DNA of 57,838 bases from Bacteroidaceae bacterium (lineage in GTDB: Bacteria > Bacteroidota > Bacteroidia > Bacteroidales > Bacteroidaceae): positions 1 to 57,838 of the forward strand of contig JAKSLL010000014.1 of NCBI GenBank assembly GCA_024401215.1. The letters run 5' to 3'. The notes under the pieces were generated by a model. The model saw only the letters and a list, made by a program, of their open reading frames with translations. It had not been told where the DNA came from and did no database searches. Positions 26,093-30,614 of this stretch are shown here, in pieces. Numbering within the stretch: the first letter of the stretch is position 1; each line of letters starts with the position of its first letter. The position numbers and the translations under genes are program-made.

Positions 26093-26962
26093 ATGAGACA
26101 ATTAAAAATCACCAAGTCAATCACGAACCGTGAGAGTGCTTCGCTTGACAAGTACCTTCAGGAGATCGGTCGTGAGGAATTAATTACCGTTGAGGACGAA
26201 GTAGAACTCGCTGCGAAGATTCGCAAGGGTGGTGTAGAAGGTCGTAGAGCACTTGAAAAACTGACAAGAGCCAACCTCCGTTTCGTCGTTTCAGTAGCAA
26301 AACAGTACCAGAATCAAGGTCTCAGTCTTCCTGACCTTATCAATGAAGGAAACCTCGGACTGATCAAGGCTGCTGAGAAGTTTGACGAAACACGTGGTTT
26401 CAAGTTCATCAGTTATGCAGTATGGTGGATTCGCCAAAGCATCCTTCAGGCACTTGCAGAGCAAAGCCGCATTGTTCGCCTCCCACTCAACCAGGTTGGC
26501 TCACTCAACAAAATAGGTAAGGCATTTTCTAAGTTTGAACAAGAGAATGAGCGCCGTCCTTCACCAGAGGAGCTTGCAGAACAGCTCGACCTACCAGTAG
26601 ACAAGGTCGCAGACACAATGAAGGTTTCTGGTCGCCATATCTCTGTGGACGCACCATTCGTGGAGGGCGAAGACAACAGCCTCCTCGACATCCTCTCTAA
26701 CCCTGACTCACCATCAGCCGACAAGACACTCGTAACAGAGTCTTTGCAGCGCGAGATTGAACGCGCGCTTGATTCATTGTCATTGCGCGAGAAGGAAATT
26801 ATCAAGATGTTCTTCGGCATCGGCGAGCAAGAGAAGACGCTTGAAGAGATTGGTGACCGCTTTAATCTCACACGCGAGCGTGTAAGACAGATTAAAGAGA
26901 AAGCGATACGCCGACTCCGTACAAGCTCAAAAAGCAAACTTTTGAAGACTTACCTTGGATAA
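26093..26962 (+). CDS. rpoD: Primary RNA polymerase sigma factor (sigma-70, RpoD/SigA)
   Basis: 289 residues. Short primary sigma factor of Bacteroidota, lacking region 1.1 and the long non-conserved region of E. coli sigma-70. Region 1.2 ([15 protein letters not shown]), region 2 ([38 protein letters not shown]), region 3 ([17 protein letters not shown]) and region 4 ([33 protein letters not shown], the -35-type HTH) are all present. The protein recognises the TTTG/TAnnTTTG promoters seen across this window. It is transcribed alone from its own promoter and ends at a clear terminator (27018-27055). Identification is firm. Confidence 0.96.
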
Positions 26963-27077: not shown

Positions 27078-27512
27078 ATGAAAAAAATACTATTTGCGTT
27101 TGTAGTCTCCCTTTTTGCGTCTTATGCTGTTGCGCAGGAAAGTGTCGATGATTATTTCAAGAAGGGTAGCGGAAAGGTTTATGTGTTTGGCGTAAGCCAG
27201 ATGCTGACCGATTCGATTGTGTATATTTCTCCAATACAGGAGATTGCAGGCATTGATTTGCAGAAGAAGACAAAGTTTCTTCCTTATCGCTCGGAATTCA
27301 GCATGCAGATGAAGCAGTATCTTGAAGGAGAGCTGCATCTGCAAAAGCAGACAGCATGCACATTCTACGCTTCTACGCGTAAAAAGGCATCAAAGATTTA
27401 TTATAGGATAAAGAAACGTTATCTTGACAATCCCAAAACAAAGATTTTCATGGTGGATGGAAGCAAGTTTGCGTTTGTACACCCTGCCGATGCTTATAAT
27501 GAGCAGAAATAA
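27078..27512 (+). CDS. Small secreted protein of unknown function
   Basis: 144 residues from the ATG at 27078, which opens a good signal peptide (MKKILFAFVVSLFASYAVAQ). An in-frame ATG at 27048 falls inside the rpoD terminator hairpin and was rejected. The mature protein is small and basic with a VYVFGVSQMLTDSIVYISPI region, a QMKQYLEGELHLQKQTACTF stretch containing the only mature Cys, and a KKASKIYYRIKKRYL segment rich in Lys and Tyr. No family was recognised. It lies 66 bp upstream of the C11 protease on the same strand and could belong to that cassette, perhaps as a substrate or partner; this is inference from position only. Confidence 0.7.
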   Translation: MKKILFAFVVSLFASYAVAQESVDDYFKKGSGKVYVFGVSQMLTDSIVYISPIQEIAGIDLQKKTKFLPYRSEFSMQMKQYLEGELHLQKQTACTFYASTRKKASKIYYRIKKRYLDNPKTKIFMVDGSKFAFVHPADAYNEQK

Positions 27513-27578: not shown

Positions 27579-28841
27579 ATGAATGTAATAAAGAAAATAG
27601 CAATTAATAAAGTTGCAGCAATGCTTTTAAGTGTTGCTGCAATTTATTCGTTTTCTGCATGTTCGAAAGATGAGAATGAGGAGAAGAATGATGAAGAAGA
27701 GCATAGCAGAACTGTTATTTTTTATATTGCCGCCGATAATTCTTTGAGTAACAATGCCAAATATGATTTGAAGGAAATCTATCAAGGTATGCAGAATCTT
27801 GTTATTGGTGAAGACGACAAGGTTGTTGTGTATGTTGACGATACCTATTCAACATCATTACTATATCTTGACAAAAAACTTGCAGCCGACGGCACAGGGG
27901 ATTTTGAGCTTATACATGAATACTCTGAAGAAATAAATTCATGCGACTCTGAGGTGTTGAAAGAAGTGCTCAGCCTTGTCAAAAGTAAATACAAGTCAGA
28001 CTCCTACGGGCTTGTTTTGTGGTCGCACGGAACAGGGTGGATGCCTTCACTATGTGAAAAGGACGGTCCGCTGCCAGCAAAACGACGAACTTTTGGCCTT
28101 GACAATAGTGAGGTAAGACCAGGCAGACAGATGAGAGTAAGTTCTCTGGCTAAGGCTGTTGAAGAAACCGGAGGCGTGGATTTTATTTTCTTTGACGCCT
28201 GTTTCATGCAATGCATAGAGGTGGCATATCAGCTCCGCAATGCAACGAGATATGTTATTGGATCTCCTTGCGAGCTTCCGGGTGAGGGCGCGAATTACAC
28301 CACTATGGTTGAAGCCATGTTCAGTAAAGACAACTATGCAGAGAAGATGGTGGAAGCATATTATAAAGAGTATTCTGACGATGGGGATACGTACGGAATA
28401 AACGTGTCTGCCATAAAAACTGCTGAATTAGAATCGTATTCCGACTATATGAAGGGTTTGGTGGGGAAATATAGTGAGGAATTGCGAAATGCCGACTATG
28501 ACTACATGCTCAATTATTTCCAATATGAAATGTGGCAATACCAGGTTGCTCAACCAAACTTCTTTGATATGCAAGCAGTTATGCTGGAAGTGCTTGATGA
28601 CAACGATTATAAGGAGTGGAGAAAGCGCACAAATGCAGTTATAATAAAAAACATGGAGACTCCATTTTGGTATAGCTCATATAACAACCGCAAAAACTAC
28701 TTTGACGTGACAGAATGCTGCGGTGTGTCTATGTTTATACCGATGGAAGTATATGATAATTATAATAATAACAACTTCAACAAAAGCATTCTAAATACAG
28801 AGTGGGGAGAAAAGGTTTGGAGTCAATATAATTACAAATAA
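27579..28841 (+). CDS. Clostripain-like (C11) cysteine peptidase lipoprotein
   Basis: 420 residues. Signal peptide with lipobox YSFSACSK (Cys28), then an acidic linker and a caspase-hemoglobinase fold of peptidase family C11. The catalytic dyad is His150 in LVLWSHGTGW and Cys208 in FIFFDACFMQC. The second strand motif RTVIFYIAADNSL and the GSPCELPGEGANY block after the dyad are also typical. C11 enzymes usually cleave after Arg or Lys and are often self-activated. The protein should be lipid-anchored on the periplasmic side or the cell surface. The stop codon overlaps the next ATG (TAATG), showing translational coupling with the HPr-kinase-like gene. Family firm; substrate unknown. Confidence 0.9.
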   Translation: MNVIKKIAINKVAAMLLSVAAIYSFSACSKDENEEKNDEEEHSRTVIFYIAADNSLSNNAKYDLKEIYQGMQNLVIGEDDKVVVYVDDTYSTSLLYLDKKLAADGTGDFELIHEYSEEINSCDSEVLKEVLSLVKSKYKSDSYGLVLWSHGTGWMPSLCEKDGPLPAKRRTFGLDNSEVRPGRQMRVSSLAKAVEETGGVDFIFFDACFMQCIEVAYQLRNATRYVIGSPCELPGEGANYTTMVEAMFSKDNYAEKMVEAYYKEYSDDGDTYGINVSAIKTAELESYSDYMKGLVGKYSEELRNADYDYMLNYFQYEMWQYQVAQPNFFDMQAVMLEVLDDNDYKEWRKRTNAVIIKNMETPFWYSSYNNRKNYFDVTECCGVSMFIPMEVYDNYNNNNFNKSILNTEWGEKVWSQYNYK

Positions 28842-29746
28842 TGAATAAAGTATATTACCGAGTAGGGCGTCATACATACTGCGTGGAATTCTGCGATGAG
28901 GTGAACTCAGAAAAGCTCATTCCTTCAAGCGACCCATTTCGTCTTGAAGAAGAGCCTGACGCAAGCGAGCCTCTTCTGTTTACGCTGAAAGTTGATGACA
29001 CGTGGCGCCCTTCAAAGAAAGGAACAGAAATCGGCCAGTTCGATTGCGGTGGAAACAATCACGGTGTATATAAGCTGGAAGATGGTTCATACCAGATTCT
29101 TGTTAGTGACGTTACAGGAAGACATTGCTGCCTTATGCAATGTTCGAGTGATTTCTCTACTGGCTCAGTATGCCTTAATGGAAATTTCACTATGCGTAAC
29201 TTTGGGCTGAATAATGCGCTAATGATGATGTACGCCTTTGCAGGAGCCGACAAGAATACCGTGCTCATGCACGCATCTGTGATTAGAGAAGATGGCAAAG
29301 GCTATCTCTGTCTTGGAGTGAGCGGTACAGGCAAAAGCACTCATACAAGCAATTGGCTGAAGTGGGTGCCAAATACAGATTTGATGAATGATGACAATCC
29401 TGTTGTGCGCATTACGGAAGACGGTGTGGCTCGTGTTTTCGGTTCGCCATGGAGCGGTAAAACACCATGTTACAGAAACGTGGAGGCTCCTATTGGAGCA
29501 TTTCTCCAGCTGAAACAAGCTCCATATAACAAGATTGTGCAACAATCGCCAATAGAAGGCTTCGCCTCACTTCTGCCATCATGCTCAGTTATGAAGTGGG
29601 ACAGAAGAGATTATGTAGGCACCTGCAACACGGTGAGCGGAATATTATCACTCGTCCCTACATATCTGCTTGAGAATCTGCCTGATATTGATGCGGTAAA
29701 GATGAGCTATAAAGCTATGACTGGCAAAGAACTAAAAATGGGGTAA
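28841..29746 (+). CDS. HPr-kinase-like P-loop protein
   Basis: 301 residues, cytoplasmic, overlapping the protease stop codon by one base. The C-terminal half has a P-loop CLGVSGTGKSTHTSNW (about 157-172, Lys165), a preceding HASVI (His144), a Walker-B-like LMNDDNPVV (Asp184-Asp185) and FGSPWSGKTP. This is the arrangement of HPr kinase/PEP-carboxykinase-like proteins that appear in peptide-modification and exopolysaccharide clusters. The first about 120 residues form a separate beta-rich domain with several Cys (FCDE, HCCLMQC). True HprK would be accompanied by a PTS HPr, which is not seen here. It probably phosphorylates or adenylates a peptide or protein handled by the neighbouring PqqD-like protein. 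Fold likely; activity unknown. Confidence 0.75.
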   Translation: MNKVYYRVGRHTYCVEFCDEVNSEKLIPSSDPFRLEEEPDASEPLLFTLKVDDTWRPSKKGTEIGQFDCGGNNHGVYKLEDGSYQILVSDVTGRHCCLMQCSSDFSTGSVCLNGNFTMRNFGLNNALMMMYAFAGADKNTVLMHASVIREDGKGYLCLGVSGTGKSTHTSNWLKWVPNTDLMNDDNPVVRITEDGVARVFGSPWSGKTPCYRNVEAPIGAFLQLKQAPYNKIVQQSPIEGFASLLPSCSVMKWDRRDYVGTCNTVSGILSLVPTYLLENLPDIDAVKMSYKAMTGKELKMG

Positions 29747-29763
29747 ATCACAAATTGCTGCAA

Positions 29764-30336
29764 ATGACACATCTCATAAAAAAAGAAGAAGGTGTTGATG
29801 TTGACAATGACTTTGTCACTATGGATAATCGATACATCATTCCTGTGATGATAGAAATCATCAATGAGGGGTGTGACCGTTTTATCCTTGCGCGAGGATA
29901 CAGCATGCGGCCATTCATCGAAGACAAGAGGGATGGGCTTGTGTTCAGCAAAATTGATGATTTTTCAAGTCTCAAAGTTGGCGATGTTGTTCTTGCGGAA
30001 ATTCAGAAAGGGCATTTTGTGTGTCATAGAATAAAGGACATAAGCAATGGCGTTGTCACCATGAGGGGCGACGGCAATCTGAGAGATGATGTGCCGTTTC
30101 CGATAGAAAATGTGAAAGTCAGGCTTACCAAGATCATCAAAAACCTCAAGATAGACAAGCTCAGAGAGGCAAAAGACAACGAAATAAACTTTATGCTGAA
30201 TGGAGGTTACGGGAAGGTTTACGACCTCGACACTTCAAAGGTGTGGAAATGCTATTCCGCCGTATGGACAAGGCTTGAACTTCCAAGACGATACCTGCTC
30301 GCAGCCTACAGATTGATGTTAAAAATAACAAAGTAA
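29764..30336 (+). CDS. S24/S26 signal-peptidase-like protein with Ser/His dyad
   Basis: 190 residues from the ATG at 29764 (a TTG three codons earlier is possible). ARGYSMRPFI carries the S26 nucleophile (Ser47), VCHRI the His that replaces Lys in SipW/ER-type signal peptidases (His88), and MRGDGN the conserved Gly-Asp-x-Asn (Asp103). The order and spacing match the Ser/His type rather than LepB. There is no clear N- or C-terminal membrane anchor, only an amphipathic basic end (LELPRRYLLAAYRLMLKI), so it may be cytoplasmic or peripheral, which is odd for a signal peptidase. It lies 17 bp after the HPr-kinase-like gene and 11 bp before the PqqD-like gene. Confidence 0.8.
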   Translation: MTHLIKKEEGVDVDNDFVTMDNRYIIPVMIEIINEGCDRFILARGYSMRPFIEDKRDGLVFSKIDDFSSLKVGDVVLAEIQKGHFVCHRIKDISNGVVTMRGDGNLRDDVPFPIENVKVRLTKIIKNLKIDKLREAKDNEINFMLNGGYGKVYDLDTSKVWKCYSAVWTRLELPRRYLLAAYRLMLKITK

Positions 30337-30347
30337 AAAATAAGACA

Positions 30348-30614
30348 ATGAAAATAAGAAAAGGATTTGAACTTCACAAAGTTTGCGATGAGAATATCAT
30401 TATCTCACATGGTGTTGAAAACATAAACTTCACAAAAGTCATAACTCTTAATGAGACAGCAGCATACCTTTGGAATAAGGTTGCGTCAAAGGACTTTACT
30501 GAGGAGGAATTGGTAGAACTTCTCCTTAAGGAATATGAAGTTGACAAAGAGACAGCTGCTGCCGATGTGAAGAACCTTGTTGAATCATGGGTTAATGCAG
30601 GGCTTGTTGAATAA
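30348..30614 (+). CDS. PqqD-like peptide chaperone
   Basis: 88 residues. The pattern of a beta-hairpin (VENINFTKVITLNETAAYLW) and then helices (FTEEELVELLLKEYEVDKE; VKNLVESWVNAGLVE) is that of PqqD/RRE domains, which hold the leader of a precursor peptide for modifying enzymes. NETAAYLWNKV is the usual LNxTAAxxW signature. It is the last gene of the C11/HPr-kinase-like/S26/PqqD cassette. No radical-SAM gene or obvious precursor peptide is present nearby, so its client is unknown. Family call is strong for such a short protein. Confidence 0.85.
   Translation: MKIRKGFELHKVCDENIIISHGVENINFTKVITLNETAAYLWNKVASKDFTEEELVELLLKEYEVDKETAAADVKNLVESWVNAGLVE

Follow-up and report, generated by a model that had tools for sequence, protein, structure and literature searches.

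Linear polyphosphorylated peptides (LPPs) were described in Paenibacillus alginolyticus as products of a cluster comprising lppA, lppK, lppB, lppS, lppD and lppN (Popov et al., May 2026; PMC13381572). Ser3 of the core peptide receives phosphates from LppK, and the SipW-like peptidase LppS, which relies on Ser, His and Asp, cuts the leader in vitro only together with LppB, the recognition element (RRE) for ribosomally synthesised and post-translationally modified peptides (RiPPs); little processed peptide is obtained when the kinase is missing. The authors consider LPPs restricted to Bacillota and their biological role unknown. HprK homologues of lasso-peptide clusters likewise phosphorylate a Ser, while a nucleotidyltransferase partner adds hexoses (PMC8498205). 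Here, a compact gene cassette is analysed in a stretch of 57,838 nucleotides (the window; contig JAKSLL010000014.1 of assembly GCA_024401215.1) from a Bacteroidaceae bacterium. Three of its genes, encoding an HprK-like kinase, an S26 peptidase and a PqqD-like protein, quite probably form an LPP-type maturation module in Bacteroidales, with YxxP peptides dispersed in the genome as substrates, which probably serve surface proteins of the type IX secretion system (T9SS).

The cassette (Table 1) had been picked out by the original prediction, made from the letters alone, as four packed genes, and its open reading frames (ORFs) are spaced as claimed: the gene of a C11 protease overlaps the kinase gene by 1 bp, 17 bp separate kinase and S26, and 11 bp separate S26 and PqqD. 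The S26 ORF begins with ATG at 29764, with an alternative TTG start at 29755. The proposed protein identities were also borne out. In the HPr-kinase-like P-loop protein, S161, G162, G164, K165, S166 and T167 were invariant in an alignment of 30 rows, as were N183-D184-D185-N186 and W204-S205-G206-K207; curated models matched it weakly and below their cut-offs (ScmC, 2.7e-5; HprK_rel_A, 1.1e-3), and its family profile gave no match in the PDB at E <= 0.01. The SipW-type Ser/His pair of the S26 protein, S47 and H88, was present in 99% of 75 sequences each and was joined by D103 in 100%. Its matches to sigpep_I_arch (5.6e-6) and Peptidase_S24 (0.0053) were again weak and below cut-off, and a PDB search with the family profile returned none. 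Because it has no transmembrane-like stretch (peak 19-residue hydropathy of 1.24, with one of 33 relatives reaching 1.6), this peptidase is probably cytoplasmic, unlike membrane-bound signal peptidases. Apart from the PqqD-like gene, the window's genome (93.6% complete) yielded no PF05402 match, and the sole PDB match of its family profile at E <= 0.01 was the lasso RRE TfuB1 (1.2e-5).

Taken together with PqqD, the HprK-like kinase had been thought to indicate maturation of a ribosomal peptide with no radical SAM enzyme, and this agrees with the LPP set (PMC13381572). The accompanying idea, that a substrate is tagged by the kinase and then released by proteolysis, comes close to the LPP pathway as well; the statement that no nameable pathway fitted does not stand, since LPP matches. 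Shared with LPP are an HprK-like kinase, a discrete RRE, a SipW-like Ser/His/Asp peptidase and, in a minority of loci, an MsbA-like transporter and a nucleoside triphosphate (NTP) transferase, along with a YxxP leader followed by a conserved Ser and no macrolactam synthetase seen. By motif, the S26 residues S47/H88/D103 would correspond to S29/H68/D93 of LppS. The differences are that the present system occurs in Bacteroidales rather than Bacillota; that its precursors are dispersed, mostly behind genes for tail-bearing proteins, whereas those of LPP lie in the cluster; that transporter and NTP transferase often do not adjoin; that the HQxIxFET part of the leader is missing; and that the Ser lies 19-20 residues past the Tyr, against 18 for the phosphorylated Ser of LPP. 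Phosphorylated lasso peptides of the paeninodin type also combine an HprK-like kinase, a PqqD-type B1 protein, a nucleotidyltransferase and an ATP-binding cassette (ABC) transporter, with B2 as leader peptidase instead of S26 (PMC8498205). The window PqqD scored below the lasso RRE cut-offs (33.2 vs 70 and 27.3 vs 80 bits), and neither a B2 peptidase nor a macrolactam synthetase was seen among the recurring neighbours or the window ORFs read, no dedicated domain search having been made.

Conservation of the trio was assessed in 80 loci gathered by searching with the PqqD-like protein, a sample therefore biased for trio counts; six of them are titled as groups other than Bacteroidales-type bacteria (L007, L056, L076, L078, L079, L080). 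Kinase, S26 and PqqD occurred within 3 kb in 67/80 loci, so the grouping of the trio is not due to chance. The window order was found in 53 of the 67, S26-PqqD-kinase in 13 and kinase-PqqD-S26 in one, the remaining 13 loci having S26 and PqqD only (7), kinase and PqqD (1) or PqqD only (5). Counted by adjacency, the PqqD-like gene was adjoined by the kinase in 68/80 loci and by S26 in 74/80. The original prediction had named rare adjacency, or membership of a capsule cluster elsewhere in the genome, as signs of a chance grouping; the trio proved conserved and holds the genome's only PF05402 protein, and adjacency of the complete four-gene set is frequent only within the genus. At order level, 148 genomes gave matches at E <= 0.001 for the kinase (35), the PqqD-like protein (33) and S26 (22), distant members included. 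A same-strand ABC transporter gene lay within 1.5 kb in 25/80 loci and an NTP_transf_5 gene beside the set in 4/80, the families being checked on representatives by PF00664/PF00005 and PF14907, respectively. A recurrent gene near the module's transporter gene is lipoprotein-like and contains a Fib_succ_major domain (L062:9920-10924 and six other loci). L146 and G079 have kinase and S26 together, with the PqqD-like gene elsewhere on that contig, at a distance of about 97 kb, and the pair adjoins glycosyltransferase-like and polysaccharide-export-like genes, named by eye.

Co-conserved small ORFs beside the trio, which the original prediction had proposed to list, did not emerge: a small-ORF scan of the 80 loci, window included, detected no conserved free-standing family. 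Most of the recurring groups that were inspected consisted of frames lying across larger genes; the others were homologues of a 144-aa protein and a few short frames at a distance of over 3 kb upstream. This 144-aa protein, encoded upstream of the window cassette, was not retained as a substrate, since its signal peptide is at odds with RRE and peptidase, which look cytoplasmic. For candidate precursors in cis, 20 order-level regions were read, seven of which contain an ORF with YxxP, a known RRE recognition motif (PMC12710340; PMC13381572). It encodes 52-76 residues and lies between the PqqD and kinase genes in L136, L141, L147, L151 and L152, and stands just upstream of the kinase in L135 and L143, the latter having no PqqD match. 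In L136 and L151, which belong to distant families, the gene that precedes the whole module encodes a protein with a curated T9SS sorting domain. On a contig titled Actinomycetota, some 1.6 kb separate a PqqD-like gene from the ORF of a YxxP peptide with many Ser, Thr and Cys residues (L078:9636-9812).

For peptides away from the module, a first regular-expression scan for YxxP returned mostly chance hits, and searching the window's own genome with an early model yielded two weak hits, including a peptide truncated by a contig end. Across 151 genomes of the window's family, we counted a start-codon DNA pattern encoding MKKxYxxP, with the reversed pattern as control. The kinase was matched in 126 of these genomes (weakly in 4), and the PorU sortase model exceeded its cut-off in 113. 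Where kinase and PorU were both present (105 genomes), 447 pattern occurrences stood against 31 for the control, the pattern being in excess in 94 genomes. The counts were 11 vs 11 with PorU only (8 genomes), 24 vs 20 with neither (17 genomes) and 4 vs 3 with a weak kinase match and no sortase (4 genomes); pooling the 46 genomes outside the kinase-plus-PorU class gave 62 vs 48. Peptides were thus clearly above control only in the presence of both the kinase and the T9SS sortase. By kinase alone, 470 vs 45 (122 genomes) compared with 35 vs 31 (25 genomes), and the pattern-minus-control difference was associated with kinase status at a Mann-Whitney p of 5e-7, calculated without phylogenetic correction.

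Hits fetched from kinase-positive genomes were mostly small peptides. We read 63 distinct ones, 58 from 20 kinase-positive genomes and five from genome G195, with lengths of 42-66 residues. A Ser occupies residue 24 or 25 in 48/63, against a background of 17% of two-residue windows further on, and Ser or Thr does so in 59/63; Trp occurs within the last 12 residues in 56/63 and twice within the last 20 in 40/63, and the mean charge beyond residue 26 is -4. Ten of the peptides were compared with Pfam, with no match, and with NCBIfam, with one match at chance level (E 0.23).

Most of the sampled peptides sit directly behind genes for proteins with a T9SS-like tail, and they are for this reason considered likely to serve T9SS surface proteins. 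Such a gene lies directly upstream on the same strand for 46/58 peptides (42 by regular expression and four by eye, L182 among these being degenerate), and four of the 58 have no readable upstream ORF. The gap between tail gene and peptide has a median of 31 bp and a range of 4-239 in the 42 regular-expression pairs. The tail consensus, YDLxGRRV...KGxYIxNGKKVxxK, resembles the T9SS type A sorting domain (TIGR04183, PF18962); T9SS tails are best conserved in the motifs PxGxYVV and KxxxK (PMC5445135). With the five tails of G195 added to the 46, KxxxK closes 34/51 tails, or 40/51 if KxxxR or one extra residue is permitted, and the PorU proteins of twelve such genomes, that of the window included, end in longer tails, most of which show a related YDxxGR...GVY pattern. 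The window's genome (4.35 Mb, sortase present) contains 43 such tails at E <= 0.1. Among ten upstream proteins scanned, one matched glycoside hydrolase family 95 and one the F5/8 type C domain above cut-off; of the other eight, three had sub-threshold matches and five none. In genome G208, near-identical peptides follow large tail-bearing proteins, as if cargo-peptide pairs had been duplicated (L187, L188, L191, L194, L195).

Read directly in the sequences, the module, its conserved catalytic residues, the peptides, their co-occurrence and their adjacency to tail genes suggest how the system would operate, the chemistry of binding, phosphorylation, cleavage and export being carried over by analogy with LPP. 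As the trio supplies a kinase, an RRE and a peptidase with conserved catalytic residues, its likeliest working would be to bind, phosphorylate, cut and export. In small precursor peptides, the YxxP leader would be bound by the PqqD-like RRE and a Ser near residue 24-25 phosphorylated by the HprK-like kinase, and S26 would take off the leader in the cytoplasm. The core would then be exported by an MsbA-like ABC transporter, which is encoded beside the module in other families. The precursors would be encoded outside the window, scattered in the genome, and the mature peptides would serve T9SS surface proteins, a role that we infer from co-occurrence and adjacency.

Several observations weigh against this LPP-type reading or against parts of it. 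Fifteen of the 63 peptides have no Ser at 24-25 and seven none at 23-26; six of the seven form a related series with Thr, and LppK did not phosphorylate a Thr variant (PMC13381572). Neither a transporter gene nor an NTP transferase gene adjoins the window trio, as judged from the trio surroundings. Genomes with the kinase and no sortase show little peptide excess (23 vs 14, 17 genomes), and therefore probably have other substrates. Phylogeny confounds the association, many genera being wholly kinase-positive or wholly negative, and for this reason the co-occurrence of peptides and kinase is an association and not proof. G195 (94% complete) has five peptides, all with a tail gene upstream, and no kinase match, which reflects either genome incompleteness or a true exception. 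The short tails are shorter than T9SS type A sorting domains, both curated models (TIGR04183 and PF18962) matched 0/8 of them, and comparing their profile with that of five longer tails (two confirmed by the models) gave a weak result (probability 15%). Finally, in the window's genome a clear YxxP ORF follows within 45 bp after only 3/30 tails (L206, L223 and L210, the last cut by a contig end); the other 27 comprise one with a doubtful YxxP ORF at 324 bp and 26 without.

A stronger version, in which LPP-type phosphopeptides are dedicated T9SS partners, is put forward tentatively: many surface proteins might be co-transcribed with their own peptide, and the module-matured peptide might accompany, anchor or join the cargo, for example as a PorU acceptor. 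Rather unlikely is that the trio is of LPP type and the YxxP peptides are its substrates, with no relation to secretion, being signals or toxins that merely lie behind well-expressed surface-protein genes. Trio and peptides would also fit this, the role of LPPs being unknown (PMC13381572), and the failure of the T9SS models on the short tails is in keeping with it. So is genome G166: it is kinase-positive, the sortase model gave no match in it, and its three YxxP peptides (L240, L241, L242), of another type and about 70 residues long, have no tail-bearing gene upstream. Against a secretion-unrelated role, such a large share of peptides lies directly behind tail genes although the whole window genome has only the few dozen tails given above; moreover, peptides exceed control only with the sortase present, and the modules of L136 and L151 follow a gene with a curated sorting domain.

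Improbable, in our estimate, is that all four genes form one unit in which the C11 protein acts on the exported peptide as an indispensable second protease. As predicted, this protein is a lipoprotein protease with His150/Cys208: PF03415 scored 165.9 bits against a Pfam cut-off of 25.8, placing it with both catalytic residues in the C11 clostripain family, its best PDB match was the clostripain-related protein 6n9j (8.8e-42), H150 and C208 were kept in 4/4 sequences, and its N-terminus is lipoprotein-like, with a hydrophobic stretch followed by SAC and Cys28 in 4/4. Apart from the 1-bp overlap in the window, a single unit is favoured by the C11 gene standing directly upstream of the kinase in 13/15 genomes of the window's genus (window included; exceptions G218 and G280) and in G164, and by L133, of another family, with a C11 gene about 1.4 kb from S26 on the opposite strand. 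Yet G164 is the only one of 10 other family members with this arrangement, C11 adjoins the set in just 3/80 loci, and the peptide-rich genome G208 has no C11 match whatsoever. C11 was accordingly ruled out as a core component on its distribution, and the expectation of two proteases as matched components was not upheld: S26 is core, and by its sequence and distribution the C11 lipoprotein is an optional, predictedly extracytoplasmic addition at genus level, whose putative substrate in this genus may be the exported peptide or the cargo.

Very unlikely is that kinase and PqqD belong to an HPr-rel-A or polysaccharide-linked system with S26 and C11 as unrelated neighbours, a likeness raised by the original prediction and echoed by weak HprK_rel_A and PqqD_rel_X matches and by polysaccharide-export-like genes (by eye) downstream at L064, since scores are far under the cut-offs (18.2 vs 200 and 17.3 vs 35 bits), S26 adjoins PqqD in nearly all loci, the window set has a sigma-70 factor and a uracil-DNA glycosylase as its neighbours, and distant loci carry YxxP precursors in cis. 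Poor scores or absent partners led to rejection of the HPr-rel-A, SynChlorMet and PQQ readings.

Around the cassette, the window encodes the sigma-70 factor upstream (26093-26962), homologues of which accompany the set in 16/80 loci, and the uracil-DNA glycosylase. The small protein encoded between the sigma factor gene and the cassette had no Pfam match above cut-off.

Table 1. Positions in the window of the cassette genes and of the small upstream gene.
Feature	Positions	Strand	Observations
144-aa small protein, signal peptide; membership in the set uncertain	27078..27512	+	homologues upstream of the set in 18/80 loci
C11 (clostripain-type) lipoprotein protease, genus-level accessory	27579..28841	+	Peptidase_C11 2.4e-48; H150/C208
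HprK-like P-loop kinase, LppK-like	28841..29746	+	GVSGTGKST, NDDN and SPWSGK motifs; weak ScmC and HprK_rel_A matches
S26/SipW-type Ser-His-Asp peptidase, no transmembrane segment, putative LppS-like leader peptidase	29764..30336	+	
PqqD-type RRE, LppB-like	30348..30614	+	PF05402 1.6e-17

The enzymes are of a known kind; new are their occurrence in this phylum, the dispersed family of precursors and the connection with T9SS-like cargo. None of these three was found in the open-access papers searched, among which none contained 'type IX secretion' together with 'PqqD' (a collection lacking most subscription papers and everything posted on bioRxiv only). The LPP paper contains no occurrence of 'bacteroid' (PMC13381572), and in the available part of a paper on Bacteroidales RiPPs, PqqD appears in the reference list only, with neither S26 nor YxxP (PMC10352776). 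If the proposed reading is true, LPP chemistry would extend widely through a second phylum, where a great many precursor genes would have gone unannotated, and type IX secretion would gain a ribosomal phosphopeptide. The pairing with T9SS-like cargo, if true, would give a concrete functional lead for a class of peptides of unknown role.

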